Of a DNA stretch of 64,000 nucleotides, positions 11,964 through 35,977 are shown piece by piece. The stretch's first letter is position 1. The number at the start of each line of letters is the position of its first letter. Source of the stretch: Nocardia arthritidis (lineage in GTDB: Bacteria > Actinomycetota > Actinomycetes > Mycobacteriales > Mycobacteriaceae); NCBI RefSeq assembly GCF_011801145.1, contig NZ_CP046172.1:6944001-7008000 (forward strand), given 5' to 3'. The position numbers and the translations under genes are program-made. The notes beneath the pieces were generated by a model. That model made no database searches, was not told the DNA's origin, and saw only the letters and a program-made list of their open reading frames with translations.

Positions 11964-13313
11964 TCAGTTCCGCTCGAAACCGCGGACGCGTTCCCAATCG
12001 GTAACCGCCGCGTCGAAGGTGGCCAGTTCCAGGCGAGCGGAATTCGCGTAGTGGGCGACGATGTCGTCGCCGAACAGCGTGTGCGCCACCGGACTCGACT
12101 CCCACCGGTCGAGCGCCGCGCGCAGCGTGGACGGTAACCGCTCGCCGCCCTCGGACGGCGGCGGCAATTCGAGTTCGTGTTCGATGCCGTACAGTCCAGC
12201 GGCGATCATTGCCGCGACCGCCAGATAAGGATTGGCATCGCCTCCGGGCACCCGGTGCTCGAGGCGCAGGCTGTGGCCCGCGCCGAGGACGCGGACCGGG
12301 GCGGTGCGGTCGTCACGCCCCCACGAACACGTCACCGGCGCGAACGATCCCGGTTGTAATCGCTTGTAGGAGTTCACGTTCGGAGCGAACAGCAGCATGA
12401 GGTCGGCCATGCAGGCCAGCTGTCCGGCGACGAAATGGTCCATCAGCCGCGACATTCCGCCGTCCCGGTCCGGATCGGCGAACACCGCGGCGCCGTCCTC
12501 GGCGCGCAGGCTCAGATGCACGTGGCAGGAATTGCCTTCGCCGGCATCGTATTTCGCCATGAACGTGAGTGCCGCCCCGCGCTGCGCGGCGAGTTGCTTG
12601 GCGCCGACCTTGTAGAGCACGTGATTATCGCAGGTGGTGAGCGGGTCGTCGTAGCGGAAGACGATCTCGTACTGACCGGGATGGCATTCCGCGCGCGCGG
12701 TCTCCACCCGCATCCCCGCGGCGGTCATGGCGCGGGTGATGTCGCGAACCAGCGGAGTCACGCCATCGAGCCCGGTCAGCGCGTAGTCGGCGTTGTAGCG
12801 GGTCGCCGGGCGTAGCTCCCGGTAGCCGTGATCGTGGGCATCTTGGTAGGAGTCCCGGAAGACCAAGAACTCCAGTTCGGTACCTGCGAAGGCCCGCAGG
12901 CCCATTCCGGCCAGCCGGTCGAGTTGATCGCGCAGGATCCGGCGCGGCGCGACCGGCACCACGGTGCCGTCACGCCAGGTGGCATCGGCCAGCACATAGG
13001 CGGTGGCGTCGTCCCAGGGCAGCCGCCGCACCGTGGCGAGATCCGGCCGTAACACGAAATCGCCGAAACCCGCACCGGCCACGTCGATCGCGTAGCCGGG
13101 GCCGGTCCGCATATCGATATCGGCGGCGAGCAGATACACGCAGGCGCCGAGACCGTTGTCGATCACCTCGGTCAGGAAGTGATCGGCGGCGATCCGCTGT
13201 CCCTTCGGATCGCCGTGCAGCACCGGCAGCGCGAGCACAACCTCCTCCACGCTGCCCGCGATGATGTCGCGGCGCAGCTGATCGATGCTGTATCGAGGTA
13301 TCTGAACCGACAT
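11964..13313 (-). CDS. Glutamine-synthetase-like ligase of the siderophore operon
   Basis: Protein of 449 residues of the GS type I fold. Metal and nucleotide ligands are intact: ELEF (Glu146, Glu148), AECHPGQYE, CHVHLSL, the NSYKRL loop, and RLEHRVPGGDANPYL. These support ATP-dependent activation of a glutamate gamma-carboxyl or similar acid. The N-terminal half is closer in pattern (GDFVLRPDL, RRLPW) to polyamine- and amine-glutamylating relatives such as PuuA and GlnA3 than to true ammonia-using GlnA, so the nucleophile is probably an amine. Start ATG 13313 lies 11 bases after the NIS synthetase stop. A longer open frame upstream only shadows that gene. As the last gene of the operon, it probably ligates an amine or hydroxylamine intermediate, by inference. 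Confidence 0.82.
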   Translation of the reverse strand: MSVQIPRYSIDQLRRDIIAGSVEEVVLALPVLHGDPKGQRIAADHFLTEVIDNGLGACVYLLAADIDMRTGPGYAIDVAGAGFGDFVLRPDLATVRRLPWDDATAYVLADATWRDGTVVPVAPRRILRDQLDRLAGMGLRAFAGTELEFLVFRDSYQDAHDHGYRELRPATRYNADYALTGLDGVTPLVRDITRAMTAAGMRVETARAECHPGQYEIVFRYDDPLTTCDNHVLYKVGAKQLAAQRGAALTFMAKYDAGEGNSCHVHLSLRAEDGAAVFADPDRDGGMSRLMDHFVAGQLACMADLMLLFAPNVNSYKRLQPGSFAPVTCSWGRDDRTAPVRVLGAGHSLRLEHRVPGGDANPYLAVAAMIAAGLYGIEHELELPPPSEGGERLPSTLRAALDRWESSPVAHTLFGDDIVAHYANSARLELATFDAAVTDWERVRGFERN

Positions 13314-13324
13314 CGCCGTGCCCC

Positions 13325-15181
13325 TCATGCTCGCTGATGCAGCGGGTTGTCGACTACGCCGTGGCTGAGGTCGAATTCGCCGTCGCGCTCGGGCCGGTCG
13401 TGATCGCCGAAGGCGCGCAACTGTTCCCGGTTGAGCGCGATCCGCTCGAAGGTCGGGGTGAACAGATCGAACAGCGCGAACCGATCGGCCAGTTCCGGAA
13501 AACGCCGCTGGTAGGCGAGGACCTCCGTGCGCACCAGATCCCAGAACCGTGCCTCCGGTACGCCGAGGTGGCGGTCGGTGATATCGGCGAGGTAGCGGAA
13601 GTGGCCGGTGAAGATCGCGCTCTGGATCGAGTGCAGCAGATCCGGGGCCGCCCACCGATGCAGCACCGCATCGGCAGCAGGCGGCAGATCCGCGTATTCG
13701 GGCAGGTCCTCGGTGAGCAGGTTGATGTCCTCGGCGAAATCCTTCACCGCCACCCGCACCGGAATCTCGTTGTCGTCGTACACGATCACGGTGTTCTCGC
13801 CGTGCGGGCAGAATGCGATCCCGTATCGGCACAGGTAGTGCAGCAGACCTGGCAGCAGGGCGTGCAAGAAACGGTCCAGCCAAGCGGTCGCCGACAGGCC
13901 CGAACGCCGGACGAGTTCCGCGACCAACGCGCCACCGTGTGGATCCTCGTACAACAGAGCGGCCATCGTGCGGGCGCGCTGTCCCGGTTCGAGATACCAC
14001 GAGACCGGTTCCCGCCACACCGCACCGAGTAGCTCGTGGTACCGATAAGGCGCGCCGGGCACCTGGCCGAACATCGGGTGTGCCACCGCGACCGAGGCCA
14101 CCTCACCGAGCAGGATGATCCCGCTCTCCGCGTGCAAGAAGGGGTCGGCGGCCCGGATGCGCTGCACCCAGGCAGTGATCACCGGGGCGGCTCGGGTCGG
14201 CTCCGCGGCGATGCCGCGCCAAACCAGCGTGTTGCGAATAAGCAAGGCCAGCTTGGTATTTCGCCGCCTCGGCTGATCGACATTGGTGAGCGTGCGGATC
14301 GATTGCAGCGGCCGCAACCGATCTTCGGCCTCGCCGAGCGCGATGATCCGCCGGTCGGCCAGGTACGGCGCGAACAGGGTCTGGACCACCTCGTCCCAGT
14401 GCCAGGGATGCACCGGCAGCCACACGTAGTCGCCCGGGTCGGTCCGGTCCGCGACCTCGGCCAGGCGTGCGGTCAGCACGGCGCGGAACCGGGCGATCTG
14501 CTCGACGCCCAACTCCTCCTCCAGCAGCCGCCGCATGGTCAGCCCCCCGACATCGGCGTAGGTGGCCAGCTCTGGATGCACGGCTATCCAGCGCAATCGC
14601 AGCGAACGGCCGGATTCCGGTGTGTAGTGGGCGATATCGGCGGCCGAGAAACCCAGCCGTCCCTTGTTGAGGATCAGGCACGGATGTCCCGTCTGGTATG
14701 CCTCCAACTCCTCATAGGGCAGCTCCGCCAACTCGGCGACCGGCAGCACATCGCGCAGCAGCCGGGAGTCGGCGGCCTGGGTGGCGATGAGTTCGCCGAC
14801 CGCCTCGCACAGGACGGCGCCGTCGAGCCCGAGGATTTCGCGCAGATCCAGCAACAGCTGCTGTGGATCGTCGGCCGTGACGGTATCGCCCCCGAATTCA
14901 CGTGATACCGAACCGGATTCGATGCGCCAGCTACCGAAGCAGCCGCGCCGGGCGCGGAATCGGTACACCGCGCCGCCGGGGAGGCACAGCCGGTACCCCG
15001 CGTCGTCGGAGACCGGGGCGACGACCTGTTCGTAGGCCAGTTCGGCGAGCATCTTGACCACAAGCGCGCGCCCGGCACGCCGCCACAGGGCGGGAGCGAG
15101 ATTCGGGTATTCCATGGATGGTTCGTGCGGCAGCGGCCGTTCGGCGAGCGCGTCGGAGGGCAGTGAGATTTCAGGAAGCAC
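13325..15181 (-). CDS. NIS siderophore synthetase, IucA/IucC family (second)
   Basis: Protein of about 618 residues of the NRPS-independent siderophore synthetase family, which adenylates a carboxylate (often citrate) and condenses it with an amine or hydroxamate. Family landmarks are GHPCLILNKGRLGFS, VHPWHW, SIRTLTN and the FhuF-like C-terminal part with CPHGENT. It resembles RhbF/AlcC-type enzymes acting late in assembly. The likely start is GTG 15181, preceded by GAAAG and overlapping the exporter stop by 11 bases. ATG 15115 would give 596 residues and is an alternative. Confidence 0.9.
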   Translation of the reverse strand: MLPEISLPSDALAERPLPHEPSMEYPNLAPALWRRAGRALVVKMLAELAYEQVVAPVSDDAGYRLCLPGGAVYRFRARRGCFGSWRIESGSVSREFGGDTVTADDPQQLLLDLREILGLDGAVLCEAVGELIATQAADSRLLRDVLPVAELAELPYEELEAYQTGHPCLILNKGRLGFSAADIAHYTPESGRSLRLRWIAVHPELATYADVGGLTMRRLLEEELGVEQIARFRAVLTARLAEVADRTDPGDYVWLPVHPWHWDEVVQTLFAPYLADRRIIALGEAEDRLRPLQSIRTLTNVDQPRRRNTKLALLIRNTLVWRGIAAEPTRAAPVITAWVQRIRAADPFLHAESGIILLGEVASVAVAHPMFGQVPGAPYRYHELLGAVWREPVSWYLEPGQRARTMAALLYEDPHGGALVAELVRRSGLSATAWLDRFLHALLPGLLHYLCRYGIAFCPHGENTVIVYDDNEIPVRVAVKDFAEDINLLTEDLPEYADLPPAADAVLHRWAAPDLLHSIQSAIFTGHFRYLADITDRHLGVPEARFWDLVRTEVLAYQRRFPELADRFALFDLFTPTFERIALNREQLRAFGDHDRPERDGEFDLSHGVVDNPLHQRA

Positions 15182-16388
15182 TGGGTATCTTTCGATCGGT
15201 ATCGAACTCGGCGGCGCGGCCGGGTGGCCGCCCGCCGAGGCACGGAACAACAAGTGCGGCAGCGAGATACAGCACGCACGCCACGGCGATCGGCAGGCCG
15301 AGCCGATGGGAGGCGGCTGTGGCGGCCGCTATAGGAGCAACGAACAGCGCGCCGACCCGGGCGGTTTCGACCACCGTGTATACCGGCCCCGCCGTGCCGG
15401 TGGCCGAGAACATCCGCAGATCCAGCGCGACCTGGCCGAGCCCGAGCCCGACGCCGAAGATCAACCGGCCTACCGTCAGCGTGATCGGCTCGGTGGCCAG
15501 CGCCTGCACGGCCAGACCGACCGCGGCGGTCACGAAGGTGGCGGGCAGCAGCCGGCCGCCGAGCACCCGATGGGCGCGCCGGGTCCAGGGCATGGCGGCC
15601 AGCGCCGCGGCATGCGGGAGCAGGAACAGCAGGGCCGCAATGGCCGTCGTGGCGCCGAGGGTTACCGCGTAGTCGACGAAGAACGGGCGGATCATGCTCC
15701 CGGCGATCTCGAAGACCACCGCGAGCGCGGCCACAGTCACGACCGCGCCCAACGTTGCGCTCCGCCGGACCGGTGCCTGCTCGGCGTCGGTGCGCACCGC
15801 ACCCGTCCGGGTGAGCAGCCGGTAGCACAGCAGCGCCAGCGCACCGTCCAGTAGCGCGAAGGCCGAGATCCCCCACCGGGGATCCGGTAGCGCCAGGACC
15901 GCCGCACCGACCAGGGTCGAGGCGACCATCGCGGCGTGGAATACCGCGACATACGCACGCACACCACGGATTCGGTCGCCGCCGTCATAGGTAGAGATCA
16001 GCGCCGGATAGGCGAGCAGCAGCGCACTGTTGGTCGCGACCACCGCCGCCGAGACGGCGGTGAAGGTCGCAAGATTCGGTGCGAGGCCGAGTGCCGCGTC
16101 GAATATCGCCGAGGCGCACAATCCGGCGAACACCAGCCGGTGCAGCGGCCAGCGCCGGGCCGCCAGTCCCCACAGGGGCAGCGCCGCGAAGCCGATCACG
16201 CGGCAGACCCACAGATACGTGCCGGTGGCGGCGAGGTCGTCGGTGGCGAACAGGGCGCGAAACAGCTCCGGATAAAACGGTGTCAGCGCGGTTTCGCCGA
16301 TCAAGTGCAGGCCGACCACACCGATCAGCACCCGCCGTCCCGCCGCCCGCGTATCGTCCGGCGGCGCAACCACTTCCGGTGCGGCCAT
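15171..16388 (-). CDS. MFS transporter, probable siderophore exporter
   Basis: Protein of 405 residues with about 12 predicted membrane helices and a typical MFS two-bundle layout. It lies between the N-hydroxylase and the second NIS synthetase in a tightly packed operon, a place often held by the exporter of the finished siderophore. Its start overlaps the hydroxylase stop by one base and its end overlaps the next gene. Direction of transport is inferred from context. Uptake is covered by the divergent ABC system. Confidence 0.85.
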   Translation of the reverse strand: MAAPEVVAPPDDTRAAGRRVLIGVVGLHLIGETALTPFYPELFRALFATDDLAATGTYLWVCRVIGFAALPLWGLAARRWPLHRLVFAGLCASAIFDAALGLAPNLATFTAVSAAVVATNSALLLAYPALISTYDGGDRIRGVRAYVAVFHAAMVASTLVGAAVLALPDPRWGISAFALLDGALALLCYRLLTRTGAVRTDAEQAPVRRSATLGAVVTVAALAVVFEIAGSMIRPFFVDYAVTLGATTAIAALLFLLPHAAALAAMPWTRRAHRVLGGRLLPATFVTAAVGLAVQALATEPITLTVGRLIFGVGLGLGQVALDLRMFSATGTAGPVYTVVETARVGALFVAPIAAATAASHRLGLPIAVACVLYLAAALVVPCLGGRPPGRAAEFDTDRKIPSAS

Positions 16389-17770
16389 CACCGCGCCGAA
16401 TCGGGCCGGGCACTCGGGGACGGCAGCCGACCGAATCCACCGGACGGGTGAGCACCGGCCCGCGGCGGCCCGAAGGTGGTGAACGCGGTCGTGGCGGGCA
16501 CCGGTGCGACCGGACGCCCCGCCACCGAGTTGAGAATGGTCGCGGCCCGCCACGCCCCCAGCGTCAGATCGGGCGCGCCCACCCCGTGCGTGTGCATATC
16601 CGAGTTCTGCGCGTACAACCCCCCGGTCACACTCGGATCGGTCGTCACCCGATAGTCGCCATCGATGCGGTAGCGGCCCTGAGCGTCCCAATCCACCAGC
16701 GCCGCAAGCGGTTCGAGGAAATCCGGGCGGCGCGGTGCATACCCGGCGGCCAGCAGCACCCGGTCGGTGACCACCTCGAATGTCTCCCCGAGCTGAATGT
16801 GCTTGCAGCTCAGCGCATATCCGTCAGCCGTGCGCGCGGCCGCGGTGACCTCCATACCCGGGCACATCATGGCATCCGCCCACCCGCCGCCGATCCGCCG
16901 GTCGTACAACTCGTCGTAGATGTCGGCGATGGTCTGCGCGCTCATTCCCTTGTACAACTGCCACTGCTGGGGAATCAGCCGCTCGCGCACCGCATCCGGC
17001 AGACCGCGGAAGTAGTGGATGTAGTCCGGGGTGAAGTGTTCCAGCCCCAGCTTGGAGTACTCCATCGGCGCGAACGCCGGGGTCCGGGTCAGCCAGCGCA
17101 GTCGCCATCCGGTATCCCGTTGTGCCCGCAACAGATCGAGGAATACCTCACCGCCCGACTGTCCCGACCCGATCACCGTCACATCCGTTGCTCCACAGAG
17201 ACTTTCGCGTCGCATCCGGTACTCGGCCGTGTGAAATACCCGCTCCCCCACCAGATCCGCGAACGGAGCCGGAATCACCGGTTCGGTACCGACCCCGAGC
17301 ACCACATTGCGGGCCAGTACCCGGCCGCCCGCATGCTCGACCACGAACACCCGCCGCGCACCGTCCCACTCGCACGAGGTCACCCGAGCGTCGAACCGGC
17401 ACGACGGGAGGGATTCGGCGACCCAGCGGCAGTAGTCGTCGTACTCGGTGCGCGGCACATGCCAGCGCTCGGCGAAGACGAACGGGAACAACCGGTCCCG
17501 GGTGCGCAGGTAGTTGAGGAACGACCAGCGACTGGTCGGATCGGCCAGCGTGACCAGGTCGGCGAGAAAGGGCACCTGGAGCGTCGTACCGTCGATCAAC
17601 ATGCCCTCGTGCCACGCGAATCGCGGTCTGCCGTCGAGGAACAACGTGCGCAGCCCGGTGGGCTCGGCGAGTGCGGCCAGCGCCAGGTTGAACGGACCGA
17701 TGCCGACGCCGACCAGGTCGTAGACGTCGTCGGGTACTGCGGAGGTCATCTCGGGTGATTCGCCTTTCAT
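16388..17770 (-). CDS. FAD/NADPH amine N-hydroxylase (IucD/RhbE family)
   Basis: Protein of 460 residues of the lysine/ornithine N-monooxygenase family. The FAD site is VGVGIGPFNLALAAL near the N-terminus, the NADPH site is VIGSGQSGGEVFLDLL, and a late LLAAGYAPRRPDFL motif is the conserved ATGY-type signature. Given the two upstream genes that make 1,3-diaminopropane, the likely substrate is that diamine, as for RhbE of rhizobactin biosynthesis. ATG 17770 overlaps the upstream stop as ATGA. ATG 17749 is an alternative. The product N-hydroxy-diamine normally needs acylation, but no acyltransferase lies next to it. Confidence 0.92.
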   Translation of the reverse strand: MKGESPEMTSAVPDDVYDLVGVGIGPFNLALAALAEPTGLRTLFLDGRPRFAWHEGMLIDGTTLQVPFLADLVTLADPTSRWSFLNYLRTRDRLFPFVFAERWHVPRTEYDDYCRWVAESLPSCRFDARVTSCEWDGARRVFVVEHAGGRVLARNVVLGVGTEPVIPAPFADLVGERVFHTAEYRMRRESLCGATDVTVIGSGQSGGEVFLDLLRAQRDTGWRLRWLTRTPAFAPMEYSKLGLEHFTPDYIHYFRGLPDAVRERLIPQQWQLYKGMSAQTIADIYDELYDRRIGGGWADAMMCPGMEVTAAARTADGYALSCKHIQLGETFEVVTDRVLLAAGYAPRRPDFLEPLAALVDWDAQGRYRIDGDYRVTTDPSVTGGLYAQNSDMHTHGVGAPDLTLGAWRAATILNSVAGRPVAPVPATTAFTTFGPPRAGAHPSGGFGRLPSPSARPDSAR

Positions 17771-19752
17771 CCGCGAATATCCGCGACCGGGTTCGGGATT
17801 CGCAGATAGATCGACTGGTTGTGGACCGGGCCGTCGAGTTCGTCGCGGCCGTCGACACTGGTCAGAAAGTTGGCTTTGCACGGCAGTTCCGGGGCGTCGA
17901 GCCATGACTCGACCACTGCGGGACCGGTTGCCGCAGTGAGGGTTTCGCGCAGCCGCGCCAGTAGGGCGCGCTCGTCGGCCAGCCGCAGCGCGCCGAAGGC
18001 TCCGATCAGGCCGAGCAAATTGTTCACCAGCAAGTAGTAGGTGATCCGCTCGTCGACCAGGGCATCATCGAAAACGATAGGCGCGCAGTCGAATCCGGGC
18101 AGGATTGCCGCGGTCCGGTCGGCGTGCGACGCGGCCACATAATAGCCCTGGCTGTCGCGATACCATCCGCCGACTGGCCAGCCATCGGTGTCGAGTTCGA
18201 CCAGCGTGTTCTGATGGTGGGCCTCCAGCGCCAGCCCGTGCCGGGCATACAGCCACAACAGCGGGGTCGCCACGACATCCAGGTAGCGGCCGAACCATTC
18301 GATACTGGCCTGCGCCACCGTCTTTCCGCCGCGGGCGGCCAACGCGCCGATGATGTCGGCGAGCCGCGCCGCGCCGATGCCCGGCTGTTCGGCGACGAGT
18401 CCGGCAATACAGACCGCGCGGCCGAATCGGCCGGAAGGGTTGTCGCGCACCGCGATCTCGAAACCGCTCTCCCCCGGCACGCCCGGTACGTCGACGGAGA
18501 TCCACGCCGGATCCCGCAGGATGTGGAAATCCGGATGTGCCCGGCGCAGATCCGCGCTCAACCCGGCATCCAAGAGCCGGGCCGCGGTCACGCCGAGGGC
18601 GAGTTCGTCACGCTTGTTATTGCGGCGGGAATTGGTGATGCGCATGCCCAGCGAGAGTTTGAGCATGGCTACGGCCCCGTCCCGATACACCGTGCGCACC
18701 GACGAGGTCGGATACCAGTGCGCCCCTACCGGTCCCAGGTCGCACAGCATGCCGCTGTCGAGCAGGCGCCCGACGGCCGGGGTGCCGAGCAGCTGCCGCG
18801 CCTGCCACGGATGTGCCGGAACCGGAACGAAATTCGCGGGCACCTCCCCTGCCCCGAACAACCGCCGCACCGTCTGCCACACCGGCTCCGAAGTGGCGCT
18901 GTCGCCGATCACGAGATCGGCGTGCGCGGCGAACCAGTGCAGCGCGAACGAGCCGCGCAGTTCGGGTGAGTACGCGGCCAGCTCGGCCTGCGACGCCTCC
19001 GGCCTGCTCTTGGCGACCGGATGGAACGGATGCCCCAGCAGCAGAGCCTGTTCCACGGTGAGGAACTCCGGCTGCCCGGCCGATGCGCCGGGCCGCGCCC
19101 GGCGCTCGGACAGGTGGGCGGCGATCCGCTGCGCCGAATCCAGCACGCGCGCAACCGCCGCCGCACCGGTGTGCGGCGCACCGCCCAGCCGCCGAGTGGC
19201 TTCCCGGATCACCGCCGCCGCGACCAGCGCGACATCGGCGCGCTGCCCGTCGGCGAGCCGGACCACCCCGAACCGATGCCAACCGGTGGCCGACCGGTAC
19301 AGCACCGGAACACACAGCCGCAACCCGGTCGCAGCCAGCTCCAGTTCGAGCCGGCCCGCCGACGGCACGGCGACCCCGAATTCCCGGACGTAGCAACGAA
19401 GTAGCGCCTCGGTCGCCGCGGCATCGGCGGCGCGGACCGGATCGGGATCGTCGAGCGGATCGGCCGCGGTTTCGCGGTCGATGGTCCGGTCACCGACGGC
19501 TCCACCGTGCGCGACGCGCCCCGAGCCATCGGTTCGCTCACCTGTCTGCTCCCCGCTTGCGCGCGGCTCCGGTATCACCGGGCAATGCCCCGCCGGCCCG
19601 ATTGTTCGCTCGACTCCGGCATGACCGAGCGGCTCGGCTGCGCCTTTTGATCGCCCGCTGCGCTCGCTCATACCTCCGCCTCGCAGGCGCTCAGCTCCGG
19701 CATGACCGAGCGGCTCGGCTGTGTCTATTGGTCGCTCGCTGCGCTCGCTCAC
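17767..19752 (-). CDS. NIS siderophore synthetase, IucA/IucC family (first)
   Basis: Protein of 661 residues by coupling from GTG 19752 (GTGA overlap with the decarboxylase stop). Family motifs are GHPFHPVAKSR, VPAHPWQ, MLKLSLGMRITNSRR and EAHHQNTLVEL, typical of citrate-activating members such as RhbC/IucA. The first 55 residues are encoded by a duplicated MSERS-type repeat and are not part of the enzyme fold. Homology begins near ATEALLRCYV, about residue 113. The true start may therefore be downstream, but no better ribosome site is evident. The fold itself is full length. Confidence 0.88.
   Translation of the reverse strand: MSERSERPIDTAEPLGHAGAERLRGGGMSERSGRSKGAAEPLGHAGVERTIGPAGHCPVIPEPRASGEQTGERTDGSGRVAHGGAVGDRTIDRETAADPLDDPDPVRAADAAATEALLRCYVREFGVAVPSAGRLELELAATGLRLCVPVLYRSATGWHRFGVVRLADGQRADVALVAAAVIREATRRLGGAPHTGAAAVARVLDSAQRIAAHLSERRARPGASAGQPEFLTVEQALLLGHPFHPVAKSRPEASQAELAAYSPELRGSFALHWFAAHADLVIGDSATSEPVWQTVRRLFGAGEVPANFVPVPAHPWQARQLLGTPAVGRLLDSGMLCDLGPVGAHWYPTSSVRTVYRDGAVAMLKLSLGMRITNSRRNNKRDELALGVTAARLLDAGLSADLRRAHPDFHILRDPAWISVDVPGVPGESGFEIAVRDNPSGRFGRAVCIAGLVAEQPGIGAARLADIIGALAARGGKTVAQASIEWFGRYLDVVATPLLWLYARHGLALEAHHQNTLVELDTDGWPVGGWYRDSQGYYVAASHADRTAAILPGFDCAPIVFDDALVDERITYYLLVNNLLGLIGAFGALRLADERALLARLRETLTAATGPAVVESWLDAPELPCKANFLTSVDGRDELDGPVHNQSIYLRIPNPVADIRG
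19614..19752 (-). repeat. Two tandem copies of a 58-bp repeat read as protein
   Basis: Two 58-base units, 19614-19671 and 19695-19752, 81 bases apart start to start, nearly identical in their first 27 bases (CTCCGGCATGACCGAGCGG onward) and in the final GCTGCGCTCGCTCA. Read leftward each encodes an MSERSxR...AEPLGHAG peptide. The unit is a candidate dispersed intergenic repeat, here lying across the junction of two siderophore genes and kept in frame. Confidence 0.8.
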
Positions 19753-21281
19753 CGGCCCGCCTCCCGGTCGCCTGCGGCGACGACCGCGGCGATGAGGGTG
19801 TCGACGTCGGCTCGCGTGGTGTGCGGATTGAGCAGCGTGAATTTCAGTCGCACACCGCCGGATTCGGCGCCGAGGTCGGTGCGTCCGATGATCGCCGTTC
19901 CCGTGGCGAGCAGTTCGCGTCGCAGGGCCGCGTTGATCGCGTCGATGGCCGCGGCGTCGGGGTACCGCGGTCCGCGGTATCGGAAGACCACCGTCGAGAG
20001 CACCGGCGAAGCGGTCAGCTCGAGCCGGTCGTGTGCGTCGATGCGGTCGGCGGCGTAGCGGGCCAGCTCGTGGCAGGCATCGACGAGCTCCCCGATTCCG
20101 TTGCGGCCCAGCGCCGAGAGCGTGACAGCCACCTTGAGCATGTCGGGGCGGCGGGAGGTACGCAGCGAGCGATGCAGCAGGCTCGTGTATCCGGCGTCCT
20201 CGTCGTCGGCCGGATTGAGGTATGCGACCTGGCGGGCCAGCGGAGCCAGATCGGCGGATCGCCCGGCCAGGAAGAGGCCCGCGGCGATCGGCTGCCAGCC
20301 GAACTTGTGGAAGTCGAGGGCGATCGAATCGGCGCGGGCGATGCCATCGAGCAGGCCGGCCAGGCGCGTGGAGAACAGCGCACCGCCGCCATAGGCGGCA
20401 TCGACGTGCAACCGGGTTCGGTGCTGCCGGGCCAGTTCGGCGAGTTCCGGCAGCGGATCGATCGAGCCGAAATCGGTGGTGCCCGCCGTCGCGGCGATGA
20501 CCAGCGGGACGGTGTCGCCGCGGCCCAGCTCCCGCCGCAACACCGACAGGTCCATCCGCTGCCGGTGATCGACCGGTATCGCGACTACCGCCGACTCACC
20601 GAGACCCAGCAGGGCGACCGACCGCTGCATCGAAAAGTGCGCCGCCGCCGACGTATACACGCGCATGCGTCCGAGCACCACCGCGGGCAGACCGTCGCGC
20701 ACGGTATCAACGCCGAATCGCTCGGCCAGCACCGCCTCCCTGGCCAGCAGCAGGCCCATCAAATTCGATTCCGTTCCGCCGGAGGTGAATACGCCACCGG
20801 CGGTGTTCGGGTCATAGCCGACCAGTCCGGCCAGCTCGGCGACCAGCCGCGATTCCAGCACGGTCGCCGCGGGCGCCTGATCCCACGAATCGAGGGAGGG
20901 ATTCAGCACTGAGGCCACCGCGTCCGCGGCCACCGCGACAGCCAAGGGCGGGCAGTGCAGATGCGCCTGGCAGGCAGGGTCGGTGGGATCCACCGATTCG
21001 GCAGCCATCACCCGCGCGAACCGGGTCAGTGCCGCGATCTCACCGATGCCCTCGGCGGGGACGAGATCATCCACGGCCGTTCGGATTCGCCGTGCCACCG
21101 CGTCCGGGCCGCCTGCGGGCAGCGGTCCCGCGCGCAGGACCGCTGACTCGTCGAGCGCCGTAAGCGCCGCCTCGAGCAGCTGACGCAGCCGGGCCGTATC
21201 CGATACTCCACCGGTCAACCGCACGGCCGACCGCGCGAGACCTGTTCGCCGACCTTCGAGGATCGCCGCCTGGTTATCCAC
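19749..21281 (-). CDS. PLP-dependent L-2,4-diaminobutyrate decarboxylase
   Basis: Protein of 510 residues of the group II decarboxylase family. Visible features are the SGGTESNL motif, the HVDAAYGGG segment and the PLP lysine in DFHKFGWQP. Together with the adjacent diaminobutyrate aminotransferase it would make 1,3-diaminopropane, as RhbA/RhbB and the Acinetobacter Dat/Ddc pair do. Substrate is inferred from that pairing. Its start overlaps the aminotransferase stop by 8 bases and its stop overlaps the NIS gene by 4. Confidence 0.88.
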   Translation of the reverse strand: MDNQAAILEGRRTGLARSAVRLTGGVSDTARLRQLLEAALTALDESAVLRAGPLPAGGPDAVARRIRTAVDDLVPAEGIGEIAALTRFARVMAAESVDPTDPACQAHLHCPPLAVAVAADAVASVLNPSLDSWDQAPAATVLESRLVAELAGLVGYDPNTAGGVFTSGGTESNLMGLLLAREAVLAERFGVDTVRDGLPAVVLGRMRVYTSAAAHFSMQRSVALLGLGESAVVAIPVDHRQRMDLSVLRRELGRGDTVPLVIAATAGTTDFGSIDPLPELAELARQHRTRLHVDAAYGGGALFSTRLAGLLDGIARADSIALDFHKFGWQPIAAGLFLAGRSADLAPLARQVAYLNPADDEDAGYTSLLHRSLRTSRRPDMLKVAVTLSALGRNGIGELVDACHELARYAADRIDAHDRLELTASPVLSTVVFRYRGPRYPDAAAIDAINAALRRELLATGTAIIGRTDLGAESGGVRLKFTLLNPHTTRADVDTLIAAVVAAGDREAGR

Positions 21282-22698
21282 GCCGCACCCCGCGTTCGTC
21301 GGCGATCGGCCGGTAGCGGCGGTCGGCGGCGGCGACGGCCTCGGCTGTCCGCTCGAAGACGGTGTCGAGTTCAGCCTCGCTGACAGTCAGTGGCGGCAGC
21401 AATCGCAGCACCGCGTCGTGGCGGCCGCCGAGCTCCACGATGACGCCGCGCGCCAGGCATTCCGCGCGCACGGCCGCGGCGAGTGCGGAGGCGGCGGGGC
21501 GCGCGCCGCAGGCGTCGGCGGCGCCGTCCGGATCGACGAATTCGAGACCGATCATCAGCCCGCGCCCCCGGACGTCGCCGATGCACGCGAATTCGGTTGC
21601 CAGCGCACGAAACCGGTCCAGCATGCGCGCGCCGAGCACCGCGGCCCGGCGGTCGAGGCCCTCCGCCGCGACGAACCGCAGGGTCGCGGCGCCCGCGGCC
21701 ATCGCGAGGGTGTTGCCGCGGAAGGTGCCGATATGCGCACCCGGCGCCCAGCCGTCGTAGTGCCCCCGATAGGCCAGCACCGCCAGCGGCTGACTGCCGC
21801 CGATCGCCTTCGACAGCACCATCATGTCCGGGACGACGCCGCTGTGCTGGACCGCCCAATACGTGCCGGTTCGGCCGACGCCGGTCTGCACCTCGTCGGC
21901 GATGAGCAGAATGCCGTGGTCGTCGGTGATGCGGCGAATCCGGCGCAACCACTCCGAATCGGCGACGACGACCCCGCCCTCGCCCTGCACCACCTCGAGG
22001 ATCATCGCCGCAGGCGAGACGACGCCGCCCGCCGGATCGCCCAGCAGCCGCTCGATGTATTCGGCTGAGATCCGGGCGGATTCGGCCCCACCGACGCCGA
22101 ACGGGCAGCGGTACGGGTCGGGATAGGGCAGGCGCACGACATCGCTGGCGATCCCGGCCACGCGCTCCTTCGGCGCGACGTTCCCGGTCACGGCGAGGGC
22201 GCCCGCGGTCATCCCGTGGTAACCGCCGGTGAAGGTGAGCACGGTGCGCCTGCCGGTCACCGTCCGGGCCAGCTTGAGCGCGGCCTCGACGGCGTCGGCA
22301 CCGGACGGGCCGCAGAAATGGACCCGGGCGTCGCGGGCGAAATCCCCAGGGAGGACGTCGTAGAGCGCGGTGGTGAAGTCGTCCTTCTCGGCTGTCGCCA
22401 GGTCCAGAATGTGCAGGGGCGCACCGGAATCCAGGATGCGGCGCAGAGCTTGCACGACCACCGGATGGTTGTGCCCGAGCGCGAGCGTACCCGCCCCGGA
22501 CAGACAGTCCAGATAGTGGCGGCCGTCCGCGCCTTCGATGTGAATTCCCTTGGCACGCACGGGGACCACTGGGAACGATCGAGCATAGGTGCGCGCCGAC
22601 GACTCTCTGCGGTCCTGCCGATCGAGAATTTCCGCCATCTCCGGCGATGTGGTAAATGGTTGCACTGTCGAAACAGACAAAATGGACCTTTCCGGCAT
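21274..22698 (-). CDS. L-2,4-diaminobutyrate:2-oxoglutarate aminotransferase
   Basis: Class III aminotransferase of about 474 residues. FCGPSGADAVEAALKLAR, GGYHGMTAGALAVTG, LLIADEVQTGVGRTG and the PLP lysine in VLSKAIGG are all present. It matches the Dat/RhbA/EctB branch, which converts aspartate semialdehyde to diaminobutyrate. It is the first gene of the leftward siderophore operon. ATG 22698 is only 6 bases from the iron box. A TTG at 22680 has GGAAAGG six bases ahead and may be the real start. Confidence 0.9.
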   Translation of the reverse strand: MPERSILSVSTVQPFTTSPEMAEILDRQDRRESSARTYARSFPVVPVRAKGIHIEGADGRHYLDCLSGAGTLALGHNHPVVVQALRRILDSGAPLHILDLATAEKDDFTTALYDVLPGDFARDARVHFCGPSGADAVEAALKLARTVTGRRTVLTFTGGYHGMTAGALAVTGNVAPKERVAGIASDVVRLPYPDPYRCPFGVGGAESARISAEYIERLLGDPAGGVVSPAAMILEVVQGEGGVVVADSEWLRRIRRITDDHGILLIADEVQTGVGRTGTYWAVQHSGVVPDMMVLSKAIGGSQPLAVLAYRGHYDGWAPGAHIGTFRGNTLAMAAGAATLRFVAAEGLDRRAAVLGARMLDRFRALATEFACIGDVRGRGLMIGLEFVDPDGAADACGARPAASALAAAVRAECLARGVIVELGGRHDAVLRLLPPLTVSEAELDTVFERTAEAVAAADRRYRPIADERGVRRG

Positions 22699-22704
22699 TT
22701 CGGA

Positions 22705-22723
22705 TTAGGTTAGCCTAACTTCG
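22705..22723. promoter_or_regulatory. IdeR/DtxR iron box between divergent siderophore operons
   Basis: The sequence TTAGGTTAGCCTAACTTCG matches the actinobacterial IdeR/DmdR consensus TTAGGTTAGSCTAACCTAA at 16 of 19 positions, including the full TTAGGTTAGCCTAAC core. It lies 6 bases from the aminotransferase ATG and 150 bases before the first permease gene. With iron bound, IdeR would repress the leftward operon and probably also the rightward one. Confidence 0.85.
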
Positions 22724-22872: not shown

Positions 22873-23877
22873 ATGTCGCGCATGCCGTACCGCACCGTGG
22901 CGGTGCTCACCGCACTCGTGGCCTGCCTCGGTGTCGCGGTATTGCTCAGTCTGTTGATCGGGGCACGCGCGATCGATCCCGCAGCGGCGCTCGAGGCGTT
23001 GGTCCGCGGCGACGGCTCGCGGGAGGGTCTCGTGATCCGCGATATCCGACTGCCGCGCACCGCGCTCGGGGTGCTGGCCGGAGCCGGTCTGGCGGTCGCC
23101 GGGGCCCTGCTGCAGGGACTGACTCGCAATCCGCTGGCCGAACCCGGTGTGCTGGGCGTGAGTTCGGGGGCGGCGTTCGCGGTGGTGCTCGCGATCTACG
23201 TCGCGGGAGTCGGCACGCCGCTCGGCACCGCCGGAAGCGCACTGCTCGGCGCCGGGGTCGCGTCGGCTGTGGTCTACGCCGGGTACGCGGGCCGCGGCGC
23301 GGTCACGCCGATCCGGCTCGCGCTGATCGGTGCGGCGTTGTCGGTGATGTTGTCGTCGTGGAGCTACACCCTGATGTCGCTCGACAAGCGCACCGCCGAC
23401 GAGGCCCGGTTCTGGCTGACCGGTTCACTGGCCGGGCGGCCGATGACGGTATCGCTGGCCGTGGCGCCGTTCATCGTCGCCGGGCTGGTGCTGGCCATCG
23501 CGCTGGCGCGCCCGCTCAACCTGCTCGCCCTCGGCGACGACGCCGCCACCGCACTCGGAGCACGGCCGGTCCCGGTCCGGGTGATCGGCGGAATCGCGGT
23601 GGCGCTACTGGCCGGTGGCGCGGTCGCCGGAGCGGGCCCCATCGCCTTCGTCGGCCTCGCCGTGCCCCATCTGATGCGGCTGCTCCTCGGCCGCGACCAT
23701 CGAATACTGCTGGCCGGATGTGCGCTGGCCGGGCCGGTATTGCTGCTGGGCGCCGATATCGTCGGGCGGATTCTATTGCGCCCCATGGAGATCGAGGCCG
23801 GTATCGTGACCGCGCTGATGGGGGCGCCGGTACTGATCGGACTGGCGATCCGGGCGCGGGCGGGCCGAACGGCGTGA
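22873..23877 (+). CDS. FecCD-family ferric-siderophore permease (first)
   Basis: Membrane protein of 334 residues of the BtuCD/FecCD permease family with about nine or ten helices. RNPLAEPGVLGVSSGAA and GPIAFVGLAVPHLMRLLLG are the family signatures. ATG 22873 is chosen because AGGAAGG (22856-22862) precedes it at correct spacing. The GTG at 22822 would add 17 residues without a ribosome site. It is the first gene of the rightward uptake operon, and the stop overlaps the next start as GTGA. Confidence 0.92.
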   Translation: MSRMPYRTVAVLTALVACLGVAVLLSLLIGARAIDPAAALEALVRGDGSREGLVIRDIRLPRTALGVLAGAGLAVAGALLQGLTRNPLAEPGVLGVSSGAAFAVVLAIYVAGVGTPLGTAGSALLGAGVASAVVYAGYAGRGAVTPIRLALIGAALSVMLSSWSYTLMSLDKRTADEARFWLTGSLAGRPMTVSLAVAPFIVAGLVLAIALARPLNLLALGDDAATALGARPVPVRVIGGIAVALLAGGAVAGAGPIAFVGLAVPHLMRLLLGRDHRILLAGCALAGPVLLLGADIVGRILLRPMEIEAGIVTALMGAPVLIGLAIRARAGRTA

Positions 23878-24998
23878 CCGCACCACACGACGATCCCGCC
23901 GCCGCACCCCGCACATCGGACGCTCCCCATACATCGGACGCCCCGATAAGCCGGATAACCGCCTTGCGCCGTCGTCCGGTGAGTACTCAGGGCAACGCGG
24001 TACGCCGACCACGCGTCCTGCGTCGCTATGCCGCGGTCGCAGTGTGCATCGCGCTGCCGCTGGTCGCGATCTGGGCGTTGACGCTTGGCGATATCCCGAT
24101 CCCGGTGCCCGACGCCGCCGCCGCGGCGCTCGGGCGGGGTGCGCCCGGCGATGTGCTGGTGGTGCAGCAGTGGCGGGCACCTCGGGTGCTCGCCGCCTTG
24201 GTGGTGGGCGCGGCGCTGGCCCTGTCCGGTGCGCTACTGCAAGCGCTGCTGCGCAATCCGCTCGCCGCACCCGATGTCCTCGGCGTCACCGATGCCGCGG
24301 CGCTGTGCCTGGTGCTCGCCACCGTGGCCGGGCTGCCCGCCGTCGCACTGCCGCCCGCCGCCTTCGCCGGCGCCCTGCTCGCCGCCGGTGCGCTCGTCCT
24401 GCTCACCCACCGGCGCGGGCTGGCCGAGGAGACGACGGTGCTCGTCGGTATCGGATTGCACGCCGTATTCGCCGCCGCCACACTGTTTCTCGTCGTCCGC
24501 TTCCCCGTCGAGGTGGCCCAGCAGACGGTGCGCTGGACGGTGGGCACACTCTACGCCAGCGCTTGGCCGCAGGCCGGGATCGGACTTGCCGTCCTCGCCG
24601 TGCTGACACCGGTCGCGCTGCTGCTGACCCGGCGGCTGGCGGTGCTGCAGTTGGGTGTCGATCTGGCCACCGGGCTGGGGCTTTCGGTGCGTCGCACCCG
24701 GTTGGCGGTGACGGCGGTCGCGGTGGCCCTCGCCGCCGTCGCCGTGGCGATCGGCGGCCCCGTCTCCTTCGTCGCGCTGGCCGTGCCGCAGGCAGCACGT
24801 CGCCTCGCCGGACCGCTCGGGGTGCACACGCTGCTCCTCAGCGCCGGGCTCGGGGCACTGGTCGTACTCGCCGCCGATATCGCGGCCCAGCACGCGTTCG
24901 CGGTCGTGCTGCCGGTCGGCGCGATCACCGCCACCGTCGGCGCACCGATATTTCTCTGGCTGCTCTTGCGGTCACCGCGTCGAAGGGGTGCGAAATGA
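23874..24998 (+). CDS. FecCD-family ferric-siderophore permease (second)
   Basis: Permease of 374 residues, second half of the transmembrane heterodimer. RNPLAAPDVLGVTDAAA and GGPVSFVALAVPQAARRL match the family. The N-terminal 45 residues are a polar, repeat-like extension (TSDAPHTSDAP) before the first helix, longer than usual. GTG 23874 overlaps the previous stop, and the stop overlaps the ATPase start as ATGA. Confidence 0.9.
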   Translation: MTAPHDDPAAAPRTSDAPHTSDAPISRITALRRRPVSTQGNAVRRPRVLRRYAAVAVCIALPLVAIWALTLGDIPIPVPDAAAAALGRGAPGDVLVVQQWRAPRVLAALVVGAALALSGALLQALLRNPLAAPDVLGVTDAAALCLVLATVAGLPAVALPPAAFAGALLAAGALVLLTHRRGLAEETTVLVGIGLHAVFAAATLFLVVRFPVEVAQQTVRWTVGTLYASAWPQAGIGLAVLAVLTPVALLLTRRLAVLQLGVDLATGLGLSVRRTRLAVTAVAVALAAVAVAIGGPVSFVALAVPQAARRLAGPLGVHTLLLSAGLGALVVLAADIAAQHAFAVVLPVGAITATVGAPIFLWLLLRSPRRRGAK

Positions 24999-25816
24999 CA
25001 AATGTCCGAGACGATCCGAACCGCGCACTGCGTACCGATGGACTCACGCTCGCTTACGACGGCCGCGAGGTGGTGCGCGAACTGAACGCCGCGCTGCCCG
25101 ATGGTGGATTCACCGCCATCATCGGCCCCAACGGCTGCGGGAAATCCACACTGCTGCGCGGCCTGGCCCGGCTGCTGATGCCGCGGCGCGGCGCGGCCTA
25201 TCTCGACGGACAACCGATCCATCGATTACCGACCCGGACGGTGGCGCGACGCATCGGACTGCTGCCGCAATCACCGATCGCGCCGGAGGCCATCACCGTC
25301 GAGGATCTGGTATGGCGGGGTCGCTACCCGCATCGCCGGCTGCTGCGTGCCGCCGACACCGCCGACCGTGCGGCGGTCGAGGCGGCGCTCACCAGCACCG
25401 GACTGCTCGAGCTGCGCGGCCGTCCGGTCGACGAGCTGTCCGGCGGCCAGCGCCAGCGAGCCTGGATCGCCCTTGCTCTGGCCCAGCAGACACCGCTGCT
25501 GCTGCTCGACGAGCCAACCACCTACCTGGATCTGCGACACCAACTCGACGTGCTGGACCTGCTCGCACACCTGCATCGAGACGCGGGCCGCACCGTCGTC
25601 GCCGTACTGCACGACCTCGATCAGGCCTGCCGCTACGCCACCCACCTGGTCGTACTCGCCGATGGCCGACTCGTCGCCGCGGGCGAACCGGCGCGGATCA
25701 TGACGGCCGAACTGGTGGAACAGGTATTCGACGTGCCGTGCGAGATCATTCCCGATCCGTTCACCGGCACCCCGATGGTCGTGCCGCGTCCGCGCGGTGC
25801 ACGAGGAAAGGAATAA
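24995..25816 (+). CDS. ABC transporter ATPase for ferric siderophore
   Basis: ATPase of 273 residues of the FecE/FepC group. Walker A GPNGCGKST lies at residues 44-52, with signature LSGGQRQR, Walker B LLLLDEPT and the switch histidine in VLHDLDQA. It powers uptake with the two permeases and the binding protein. ATG 24995 overlaps the permease stop (ATGA), and the stop lies 2 bases before the binding-protein start. Confidence 0.93.
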   Translation: MTNVRDDPNRALRTDGLTLAYDGREVVRELNAALPDGGFTAIIGPNGCGKSTLLRGLARLLMPRRGAAYLDGQPIHRLPTRTVARRIGLLPQSPIAPEAITVEDLVWRGRYPHRRLLRAADTADRAAVEAALTSTGLLELRGRPVDELSGGQRQRAWIALALAQQTPLLLLDEPTTYLDLRHQLDVLDLLAHLHRDAGRTVVAVLHDLDQACRYATHLVVLADGRLVAAGEPARIMTAELVEQVFDVPCEIIPDPFTGTPMVVPRPRGARGKE

Positions 25817-25818
25817 CC

Positions 25819-26793
25819 ATGGCGCGGTTGCGCTTAGGACGCCGCCGATTCGGGTTGGCGCTGGCCGGTGTGCTCACTGCCGGACTTCTCACCGGATGCG
25901 CTGAGGCGCAACAGAATCCGTCAGGACCCTCGGTCACCGTCGAGCATGCGATGGGCCGGACCGTCGTCCCGGCCCATCCGGCACGGGTCGTCGTGCTGGA
26001 CACCCCGGAACTCGACGCCGTGACCGCACTCGGTGTGCGGCCGGTGGGCGCCGCCGTCGTCGATCCGGGCACACTCGATCTGCCCGGATATCTACGGGCG
26101 GAACTGCAGGGCACCGAACGCGTCGGGTCGATGGACGAACCGAGCCTGGAGAAGATCGCGACACTGAAACCGGACTTGATCCTGTCGTCGAAGACCCGGC
26201 ACGAGCAGATCTACCCGCAGCTGGCGCGGATCGCGCCGACGGTATTCGCCGAAACACCCGGCTATTCGTGGAAGGACAATTTCCGGCTGTACGCCAAGGC
26301 GCTCGGCAAGGACAGCGAGGCCGATGCGCTCCTGGCCACTTATCAGCGCAGGGCTACCGGCCTCGGTTCGGCGTTCGCCGCGGCGAACGGCGGTGTGCCG
26401 CCGACGGTTTCGGTCGTCCGGTTCATCGACGGACCTACCCGGCTGTATCAGAAGAAGACCTTCAGCGGAGTCGTGCTCTCCGATCTCGGCGTCCGCCGCC
26501 CACCCGCCGAAGACGTGGACGACTTCTCCCTCGACGTGGGTCCCGAATTGGCCGACAAGGCCGATGCCGACTACGTGTTCACGATGTCCTACGGAGATCC
26601 GGCCAAGTCCCAGCAGCAATCGTTCACCGCGAGCCCGCTCTGGCACACCCTGAATGCCGTCCGCACGCATCGGGTGTTCCCGGTGTCCGACGAGGTGTGG
26701 ATGCTCGGCATCGGTGTGCAGGGCGCGAACCTGGTCCTCGACGACATCGCGCGTGCCGCGGCCGTCGATCCGATGCGAGGACCGATCCGCTGA
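25819..26793 (+). CDS. Siderophore-binding lipoprotein (FecB/FepB type)
   Basis: Protein of 324 residues with a lipoprotein signal peptide. The lipobox LLTGC gives lipidated Cys27, and twin basic residues precede it. The mature part is a class III periplasmic-binding fold (RVVVLDTPELDAVTALG, then KIATLKPDLIL). In Gram-positive actinomycetes it would sit on the outer face of the cell membrane and deliver ferric siderophore to the permease. AGGAAAGGA precedes the ATG. The stop shares one base with the next start (TGATG). Confidence 0.92.
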   Translation: MARLRLGRRRFGLALAGVLTAGLLTGCAEAQQNPSGPSVTVEHAMGRTVVPAHPARVVVLDTPELDAVTALGVRPVGAAVVDPGTLDLPGYLRAELQGTERVGSMDEPSLEKIATLKPDLILSSKTRHEQIYPQLARIAPTVFAETPGYSWKDNFRLYAKALGKDSEADALLATYQRRATGLGSAFAAANGGVPPTVSVVRFIDGPTRLYQKKTFSGVVLSDLGVRRPPAEDVDDFSLDVGPELADKADADYVFTMSYGDPAKSQQQSFTASPLWHTLNAVRTHRVFPVSDEVWMLGIGVQGANLVLDDIARAAAVDPMRGPIR

Positions 26794-28949: not shown

Positions 28950-28968
28950 TTAGGCTAGCAAAACCTAA
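28950..28968 (-). promoter_or_regulatory. IdeR/DtxR iron box of the siderophore-interacting gene
   Basis: TTAGGCTAGCAAAACCTAA matches the IdeR consensus at 15 of 19 positions. A second, weaker register overlaps it at 28945-28963 (14 of 19), suggesting binding of more than one dimer. It is 6 bases upstream of the reductase start. Confidence 0.75.
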
Positions 28969-35952: not shown

Positions 35953-35977
35953 ATCAACCTATAGCGGAGGAATTCTT

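Follow-up and report, generated by a model that had tools for sequence, protein, structure and literature searches.

The closest described systems are the rhizobactin 1021, schizokinen and aerobactin operons (RhbA-F, IucA-D), whose known gene order is our point of reference and which have in common with the locus described here a transaminase (DAT), a decarboxylase (DDC), a diamine N-hydroxylase, IucA- and IucC-type synthetases, an exporter and an iron box. The desferrioxamine DesA-D operons also share with it a decarboxylase, an N-hydroxylating monooxygenase (NMO) and an NIS synthetase, DesC being an acyl-CoA N-acyltransferase (GNAT). As far as is known to us, NIS siderophores owe their hydroxamates to acyl-CoA N-acyltransferases. 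A hydroxamate is also formed in the old glutamine synthetase (GS) assay, from ATP, glutamate and hydroxylamine. Here, as in many actinobacteria, a GS-family ligase paired with a decarboxylase occupies the acyltransferase slot, which suggests a novel route to the iron-binding hydroxamate group. No description of a GS in an NIS pathway appeared among the papers listed in literature searches, with most subscription journals outside their scope, and passages from PMC13238742 and PMC13136089 do not contain the words glutamine synthetase.

Gene set of the Nocardia arthritidis locus

The window, a stretch of 64,000 nucleotides from Nocardia arthritidis, carries a minus-strand operon at positions 11964-22698 in the order DAT-DDC-NIS1-NMO-MFS-NIS2-GS. 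Pfam and NCBIfam searches confirmed the genes and order given in an earlier note on this DNA, which had described a leftward operon with diaminopropane genes, an N-hydroxylase, an exporter and two NIS synthetases. The gene set is nevertheless larger than that note said, which missed a divergent importer operon ending in a decarboxylase gene (DC3), a siderophore reductase and two iron boxes:

11964..13313, minus strand: GS-like ligase (GS), 449 aa, proposed gamma-glutamyl-hydroxamate synthetase (PF00120, 316 bits)
13325..15115, minus strand: NIS synthetase 2 (NIS2), IucC-type (PF04183/PF06276; best solved match IucC 6cn7, 330 bits)
15171..16388, minus strand: MFS exporter (PF07690, 23 bits, below cut-off)
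16388..17749, minus strand: N-hydroxylating monooxygenase, NMO (PF13434, 363 bits)
17767..19752, minus strand: NIS synthetase 1 (NIS1), IucA-type (start uncertain; recognisable homology from about 19452)
19749..21281, minus strand: L-2,4-diaminobutyrate decarboxylase, DDC (PF00282)
21274..22698, minus strand: diaminobutyrate-2-oxoglutarate transaminase, DAT (PF00202; TIGR00709, 528 bits, above cut-off)
22705..22723, plus strand: DtxR/IdeR-like iron box in the gap separating the two divergent operons (19-bp consensus matched with 3 mismatches)
22873..23877, plus strand: Fe-siderophore permease, FecCD type (NCBIfam Fe-siderophore permease, 264 bits, below the cut-off of 428)
23979..24998, plus strand: second FecCD-type permease (ORF and position; named by eye only)
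24995..25816, plus strand: siderophore ABC-transporter ATPase (ORF and position; named by eye only)
25819..26793, plus strand: siderophore-binding lipoprotein (PF01497, 94 bits)
26793..28025, plus strand: DC3, alanine-racemase-fold PLP decarboxylase, proposed gamma-glutamyl-hydroxamate decarboxylase (PF02784/PF00278)
28120..28944, minus strand: siderophore-interacting FAD reductase (PF04954 and PF08021, both above cut-off)
28950..28968, plus strand: DtxR/IdeR-like iron box upstream of the reductase

The operon genes overlap or are separated by at most 55 bp, the DDC-NIS1 gap hinging on the NIS1 start, and GS is the last gene, 11 bp after NIS2. The tested stretch of NIS1 (17767-19452) matched PF04183/PF06276, with IucA as its best solved match (5jm7, 162 bits), and the only two PF04183 genes of the whole genome are both in this operon. 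Among solved proteins, NMO matched best to 6xbb (350 bits) and the putrescine N-hydroxylase 7us3 (321 bits), with diamine hydroxylases ranking near the top, while DDC scored 355 bits against the NCBIfam model DABADecarRhbB, under its equivalog cut-off of 900. Scored against what we take to be the 19-bp DtxR/IdeR consensus, the window gave two box matches versus none in 100 shuffles.

As seen, the locus holds DAT and DDC, a flavin N-hydroxylase of the Lys/Orn/diamine family and both IucA-type and IucC-type synthetases, all belonging to a hydroxamate-citrate NIS pathway. The IucB/RhbD-type GNAT of such a pathway was not found in the window, where a profile of operon GNATs matched no ORF of at least 80 aa at E <= 10, and the earlier claim that the window has no acyl-CoA N-acyltransferase was borne out.

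The GS-like ligase and its distribution relative to GNATs

The ligase belongs to the GS superfamily, with PF00120 above cut-off, the metal and glutamate residues and a GS fold; its AlphaFold model (mean pLDDT 75.5) confirms the fold only, the active-site loops being of low confidence. PMC6529630 assigns six residues of GlnA4 to metal, five to glutamate and two to ATP, and all of these were conserved in 60/60 siderophore-type GS sequences (57 distinct, with that of locus L176 counted apart). The earlier note held the catalytic Glu, His and Arg positions to be intact, which is right where residues for metal, glutamate or ATP are concerned. It is not so for the ammonia-flap Glu of true ammonia-using glutamine synthetases (E327 of Salmonella GS), which is Phe324 in the window and Phe in 58 and Tyr in 2 of the 60 sequences. 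Against the PuuA gamma-glutamylputrescine synthetase model (NF045547), the ligase scored 219.5 bits versus a cut-off of 650.

The window's GS is 56% identical to the GlnA4-type paralogue of its own genome. In a quick tree, the 51 sequences that we label GlnA4-type, which are not beside NIS genes, formed a 100%-supported clade excluding the siderophore kind, itself paraphyletic around that clade. The window's GS falls outside it with four near-fixed differences, a comparison in which the Streptomyces coelicolor reference protein was not included. The signature residues Arg207, His211 and Tyr215 were found in 60, 60 and 58 of the 60 siderophore sequences and each in 0/51 of the GlnA4-type clade, which has Lys, Asn and His at these sites. 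All three occur in the L176 protein, which is 37% identical, has Thr at the glutamate-binding E259 and stands in an operon with no DC3. At least one likely siderophore-kind protein (P0073) carries the NCBI name GlnA4. Chance co-location of a GlnA4 gene was considered and rejected: in a GS-centred scan, 33 of 80 GS relatives were beside NIS2, and 46 of the 47 that were not fell in one GlnA4-type clade, the other (L064, a 3.1-kb fragment) grouping with the siderophore kind.

The distribution of the ligase was compared with that of GNATs in 80 actinobacterial loci drawn by NIS2 homology. GS was present without GNAT in 26 loci and GNAT without GS in 54, with no locus having both or neither; the anticorrelation proposed as a test in the earlier note is thus exclusive in this set. 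The NIS2 search matched 139 of 394 genomes, and the 80 loci comprise 60 from the best-scoring rows, taken after setting aside the window's own genome and three second-copy rows in the same regions, plus 20 hand-picked from lower rows. A locus was scored GS-positive if tblastn placed a GS match (E <= 1e-10) no more than 6 kb from NIS2, and GNAT-positive when the operon-GNAT profile reached at least 50 bits within 7 kb. Three GNAT-positive loci served as seeds of this profile, and both these seeds and the sequences used for iteration came from the set being scored. Among the lower-scoring, DesD-like loci sampled, GNAT was present in 20/20. In loci chosen by GS and having NIS2, GNAT was absent in 33/33 (several cut by contig ends), and GS-positive loci gave no match to the profile even at E <= 1e-3. 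The 59 GS-positive loci are 56 distinct ones (duplicates L093/L144, L108/L145 and L068/L149); 52 have an NMO relative, the other 7 holding only part of the operon, and 21 have an MFS relative. DDC and NMO relatives stand beside NIS2 in 39 of the 54 GNAT-positive loci.

All GS-positive loci fell in one NIS2 clade, so that their exclusivity with GNAT counts as one event, a single old switch to which the sampled loci show no exception. Many independent swaps are unsupported, the tree having one change. This tree was made by a quick method and has flagged long branches, including those of L176 and the window; L067, L074, L075, L078, L083, L139 and L198 (short or cut) as well as L064 were left out. 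The GS-positive loci span six named actinobacterial families, plus the window's genome. Overall, the proposal that GS replaces the acyltransferase passes its anticorrelation test, albeit as a single event, and its chemistry is a prediction from sequence.

The DC3 decarboxylase and the proposed pathway

A DC3 relative was found in 43/59 GS-positive loci, with two more just beyond the sequence fetched, and in 0/54 GNAT-positive loci. The two are L095 and L202, which only seemed to lack DC3: at 64-65% identity, relatives occur about 1 kb beyond the fetched sequence on the contig of L202 and, assuming that C23 is the contig of L095, about 2.2 kb beyond it for L095. In both L095 and L202, DDC is unlinked to the locus. 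In one GNAT-positive genome, G269, DC3 relatives sharing 32-37% identity occur away from the locus.

Considering the observed gene content, GNAT exclusivity, GS-DC3 linkage, residue conservation and iron boxes, we propose, with a probability of about 0.6, that this is a citrate-type NIS siderophore pathway whose acyl-CoA N-acyltransferase has given way to a GS-fold ligase related to GlnA4, and that DC3 trims the product to a 4-aminobutyryl group. DAT and DDC would supply 1,3-diaminopropane, one nitrogen of which would be hydroxylated by NMO. GS would convert L-glutamate to gamma-glutamyl phosphate and couple it to the hydroxylamine, giving the gamma-glutamyl hydroxamate of N-hydroxy-diaminopropane, from which DC3 would take off the glutamyl alpha-carboxylate to leave a 4-aminobutyryl hydroxamate. 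Two such arms would be joined to citrate by the IucA-type NIS1 and the IucC-type NIS2, the siderophore would leave through the MFS exporter, and the ABC importer and reductase would recover the iron. On a schizokinen-like frame, the computed product is C20H38N6O9 ([M+H]+ 507.277) or, should DC3 leave it untouched, C22H38N6O13 ([M+H]+ 595.257), the Fe complexes being predicted at m/z 560.189 and 648.168, respectively. The glutamyl-hydroxamate siderophore of the earlier note agrees with the glutamate-binding residues kept in 60/60 sequences; however, the linked decarboxylase suggests trimming of this glutamyl unit to 4-aminobutyryl, and the siderophore may therefore lack a glutamyl carboxylate.

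Alternatively, GS could make the gamma-glutamyl hydroxamate while DC3 acts elsewhere in the pathway as an SbnH-like citryl-amino-acid decarboxylase, leaving intact gamma-glutamyl groups in the siderophore. SbnH (staphyloferrin B N-citryl-Dap decarboxylase, 6knh/6knk) is indeed the closest solved relative of DC3 (6knh, 246 bits, versus 144 bits for BtrK, 2j66), sharing its fold family, NIS context and S308 and W309, both absent from BtrK. According to PMC7857480, R304, K347, H379, S308 and W309 contact the citryl group in SbnH, and FigC, SbnH and AcsE, all of NIS pathways, decarboxylate citryl amino acids. Nevertheless, the three basic contacts R304, K347 and H379 are replaced by Gln/Ala, Glu and Met/Leu in 36/36 DC3 relatives reaching these sites (39 were aligned). 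The Glu at the K347 site is common to DC3 and BtrK, the butirosin-pathway enzyme that decarboxylates glutamyl-[BtrI] (2j66, 7ru7), which belongs to the same fold family and offers a precedent in converting carrier-bound glutamate to carrier-bound GABA, although it acts on a carrier-protein thioester and is more distant in sequence. Moreover, DC3 is absent from all 54 GNAT-positive loci, even from the 39 with DDC and NMO relatives, and the diamine is already supplied by DDC. A citryl-decarboxylating DC3 is therefore unlikely.

Other roles for the ligase and comparison with known systems

GS might instead protect, detoxify or tailor an ordinary amine by glutamylating it, the substrate being diaminopropane in free form or the siderophore once completed, with an unrelated acyltransferase elsewhere in the genome closing the hydroxamate. 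GlnA3, GlnA4 and PuuA glutamylate ordinary amines, as described in PMC6529630, and a search of 20 whole GS-positive genomes (G197 and G551 being probably one strain) found an operon-type GNAT elsewhere in 10, 4 of which have only weak ones (61-73 bits). The other 10 genomes had no IucB-type GNAT at E <= 1e-10 among the up to 150 candidates scored per genome, some genomes having more (G056: 161). A small ORF, GNAT-like by eye, lies between DDC and DC3 in 9/59 GS-positive loci (7 distinct) and is not in the window; some operons may thus still acetylate something. In the closed 10.0-Mb genome of the window, PF13523 gave five matches, of which only one, at 6001249, was above cut-off; the ORFs next to this gene, judged by eye, encode HisG and a carnitine acyltransferase, and the gene itself scored 54 bits against the operon-GNAT profile, which had one other match at 25 bits. 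An IucB-type acyltransferase elsewhere in this genome was accordingly rejected, with only the hisG neighbour and four sub-threshold matches as candidates, in a search confined to GNATs of the PF13523/operon-GNAT family. Together with the exclusivity in 80/80 loci and the position of GS at the close of the operon, directly behind NIS2, this makes an ordinary-amine ligase distinctly unlikely.

In the least probable reading, an NIS synthetase would itself acylate the hydroxylamine with citrate, and GS and DC3 would modify the opposite end of the diamine. In its favour, the locus has both NIS genes, in diverged form, and two NIS2-like copies without an NIS1 relative occur in five GS-positive loci (four distinct). 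Against it, GNATs accompany these NIS types in clades neighbouring the GS-positive one, and the NIS enzymes known to us make amides and esters, not hydroxamates.

If the proposed replacement of the acyltransferase by GS is true, it would add a natural route to hydroxamates from ATP, glutamate and a hydroxylamine, tie an enzyme family of nitrogen metabolism to iron uptake, and give a class of siderophores, distinguished by basic 4-aminobutyryl arms, for which one could search by mass. More tentatively, the GS-fold ligase and the alanine-racemase-fold decarboxylase may form a two-enzyme module that builds 4-aminobutyryl hydroxamates from glutamate instead of by acyl-CoA chemistry, and so define an undescribed class of NIS siderophores that is widespread among actinobacteria.

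Unlike the locus described here, desferrioxamine has its hydroxamates made by the DesC GNAT. Rhizobactin 1021, schizokinen and aerobactin likewise have the IucB/RhbD GNAT, whereas the window has the GS-like ligase and an SbnH/BtrK-like decarboxylase instead. The ligase itself resembles GlnA4, the gamma-glutamylethanolamide synthetase of S. coelicolor, in the residues that PMC6529630 gives for that enzyme, namely those for glutamate, metal and ATP as well as a Phe in place of the flap Glu; with respect to the GlnA4-type clade, the siderophore GS lies outside, with its own Arg207, His211 and Tyr215.

Layout of the siderophore locus

The window (66% G+C) spans 6.944-7.008 Mb of a genome of 10.0 Mb in one contig, in which the two NIS synthetase genes found both map to this locus. 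The leftward operon had been described correctly in the earlier note, judged by the genes and the order found, and the rightward half of the locus (importer, decarboxylase and reductase side) had been overlooked.

Features of the siderophore locus
21274-22698, leftward operon, diaminobutyrate-2-oxoglutarate transaminase (DAT)
19749-21281, leftward operon, L-2,4-diaminobutyrate decarboxylase (DDC)
17767-19752, leftward operon, IucA-type NIS synthetase (NIS1), start uncertain
16388-17749, leftward operon, N-hydroxylating monooxygenase (NMO)
15171-16388, leftward operon, MFS exporter
13325-15115, leftward operon, IucC-type NIS synthetase (NIS2)
11964-13313, leftward operon, glutamine-synthetase-like ligase (GS)
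22705, DtxR/IdeR-like box in the intergenic region between the divergent operons
rightward from that shared region, two permeases, ATPase and binding protein, then DC3
26793-28025, rightward operon, DC3, type III PLP decarboxylase
28120-28944, siderophore reductase with its own DtxR/IdeR-like box at 28950

The boxes were searched with the 19-bp DtxR/IdeR consensus; with up to three mismatches, two matches were obtained in the 64 kb and zero in 100 shuffles. The NIS1 start is uncertain because its N-terminal extension (about 19640-19752) holds two direct repeats reading MSERS...AEPLGHAG, which resemble an interspersed repeat. An AraC-family regulator (7858-8742) weakly matches RhrA, the regulator of rhizobactin genes (43 bits; cut-off 500). 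A glutamate decarboxylase (35942-37405; TIGR01788, 591 bits, above cut-off) is encoded some 8 kb away from the siderophore genes, a possible source of free 4-aminobutyrate whose nearness is probably coincidental.

Alternation of GS and GNAT beside NIS2

In the pathway predicted from these genes, GS would join the gamma-carboxyl of glutamate to the hydroxylamine of N-hydroxy-diaminopropane, DC3 would take off the alpha-carboxylate, and NIS1 and NIS2 would attach two arms to citrate, as in schizokinen. We give about three chances in four that GS makes the hydroxamate, and consider it somewhat less likely, but still more likely than not, that GS does so and DC3 then acts on the product. What the sequences themselves show is the set of genes, the strict alternation of GS and GNAT, the linkage of DC3 with GS, the conserved residues and the iron boxes. 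An IucB/RhbD-type acyl-CoA N-acyltransferase (GNAT), which the earlier note had reported missing, was indeed absent from the window (ACYLTRANSFERASE), as an operon-GNAT profile (IucB/RhbD/DesC kind) returned no match among the window ORFs at E <= 10. Across the whole genome, PF13523 gave five matches, one above cut-off, at 6001249, flanked by ORFs resembling hisG and carnitine acyltransferase by eye and with no siderophore operon there; the operon-GNAT profile scored this gene at 54 bits and one further place at 25 bits.

Among 394 genomes of the class, 139 had an NIS2 match at E <= 1e-40, and 80 loci were extracted (the 60 best-scoring rows plus 20 hand-picked lower, DesD-like rows). The anticorrelation that the earlier note had asked to be tested held in 80 of 80: GS without GNAT in 26, GNAT without GS in 54, and both or neither in 0. 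A separate GS-centred scan of named genomes gave 80 loci, 33 with NIS2 adjoining GS (Streptomyces and relatives, Nonomuraea, Actinomadura, Micromonospora, Nocardiopsis, Frankia) and GNAT in 0 of these; the 47 without NIS2 include L064, a short fragment carrying a GS that clusters among the siderophore-type sequences. The 59 GS-bearing (GS+) loci are 56 distinct ones, since three occur in both sets. When 20 GS-operon genomes were searched whole, 10 lacked an operon-type GNAT at E <= 1e-10, four had weak matches only (61-73 bits) and six had strong ones (at least 155 bits), as expected for Streptomyces carrying desferrioxamine genes. At least two genomes (G285, G309) carry both operon kinds, with GS in one and GNAT in the other.

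Of the 54 GNAT-bearing (GNAT+) loci, 15 lack NMO and DDC relatives inside the fetched stretch, so finding a GNAT next to NIS2 does not alone establish that an operon makes a hydroxamate. These 15 (L153, L159, L161-L165, L167, L169, L170, L173, L174, L177, L179, L180; some cut) form a second kind of NIS locus, with NIS1 in 13 and DAT in 10, ordered DAT-NIS1-GNAT-NIS2 in L153.

A tree of 107 NIS2 proteins, built by a quick method and with long branches flagged, has one branch (SH-aLRT 100) that separates all 53 GS+ rows, that of the window among them, from the others, and therefore the sample contains one switch, kept without exception. The pattern is strong conservation, not repeated independent replacement.

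Several variant operons count against the predicted pathway. Nine GS+ loci (L068, L070, L084, L108, L145, L147, L148, L149, L066), seven of them distinct, carry between DDC and DC3 a differing small conserved ORF, GNAT-like by eye and not present in the window; the L068 copy has no Pfam match, and the L068 and L145 copies no NCBIfam match. One guess is that it acetylates a free amine. Five GS+ loci (four distinct) of Micromonospora and Nocardiopsis type (L085, L108, L145, L147, L148) lack a NIS1 relative but carry two NIS2-like copies. In L095 and L202, DDC is unlinked; elsewhere in both genomes lie relatives at 58-62% identity, each split into two pieces. L176 is a minimal DDC-NMO-NIS2-GS operon without a DAT, NIS1 or DC3 relative in its stretch; its GS is very divergent (37%) and retains the R/H/Y signature.

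The DC3 partner and its known relatives

A DC3 relative, of the alanine-racemase-fold PLP decarboxylases, was found in 43 of 59 GS+ loci versus 0 of 54 GNAT+ loci. Thirteen of the 16 GS+ loci without one are short or cut. In L095 and L202 a DC3 relative (64-65% identity) lies just outside the fetched stretch, the L095 case assuming that contig C23 is its own; in L176, where DC3 is missing from the operon, less than 300 bases separate GS from the end of the contig. Whole-genome searches of five GNAT+ genomes gave no DC3 match at E <= 1e-20 in four and two matches, at 32 and 37% identity, in the fifth (G269).

The nearest solved relatives of DC3 are SbnH and BtrK; that SbnH is the nearer overall counts against the predicted pathway. 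In the SbnH study (PMC7857480), K347, R304, S308 and W309 are described as gripping the citryl carboxylates of the substrate, with H379 nearby. Of 39 aligned DC3 relatives, 36 reach these sites: the R304 site is Gln in 31 and Ala in 5, K347 is Glu in all 36, and H379 is Met in 31 and Leu in 5. S308 and W309 are retained in the DC3 relatives, whereas BtrK, which converts carrier-bound glutamate to carrier-bound 4-aminobutyrate, lacks both and has the same Glu as DC3 at the K347 site. As basic contacts are lost and an acidic one is gained, these residues argue against a citryl substrate and for a cationic-tailed one, e.g., gamma-glutamyl-N-hydroxy-diaminopropane.

Among the literature matches listed from a library of 5.39 million papers, with subscription journals mostly outside coverage, none described such a gene combination or placed an enzyme of the GS family at the hydroxamate-forming step. 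All parts belong to known families; their combination, and the placing of a GS-family enzyme at that step, appear to be new.
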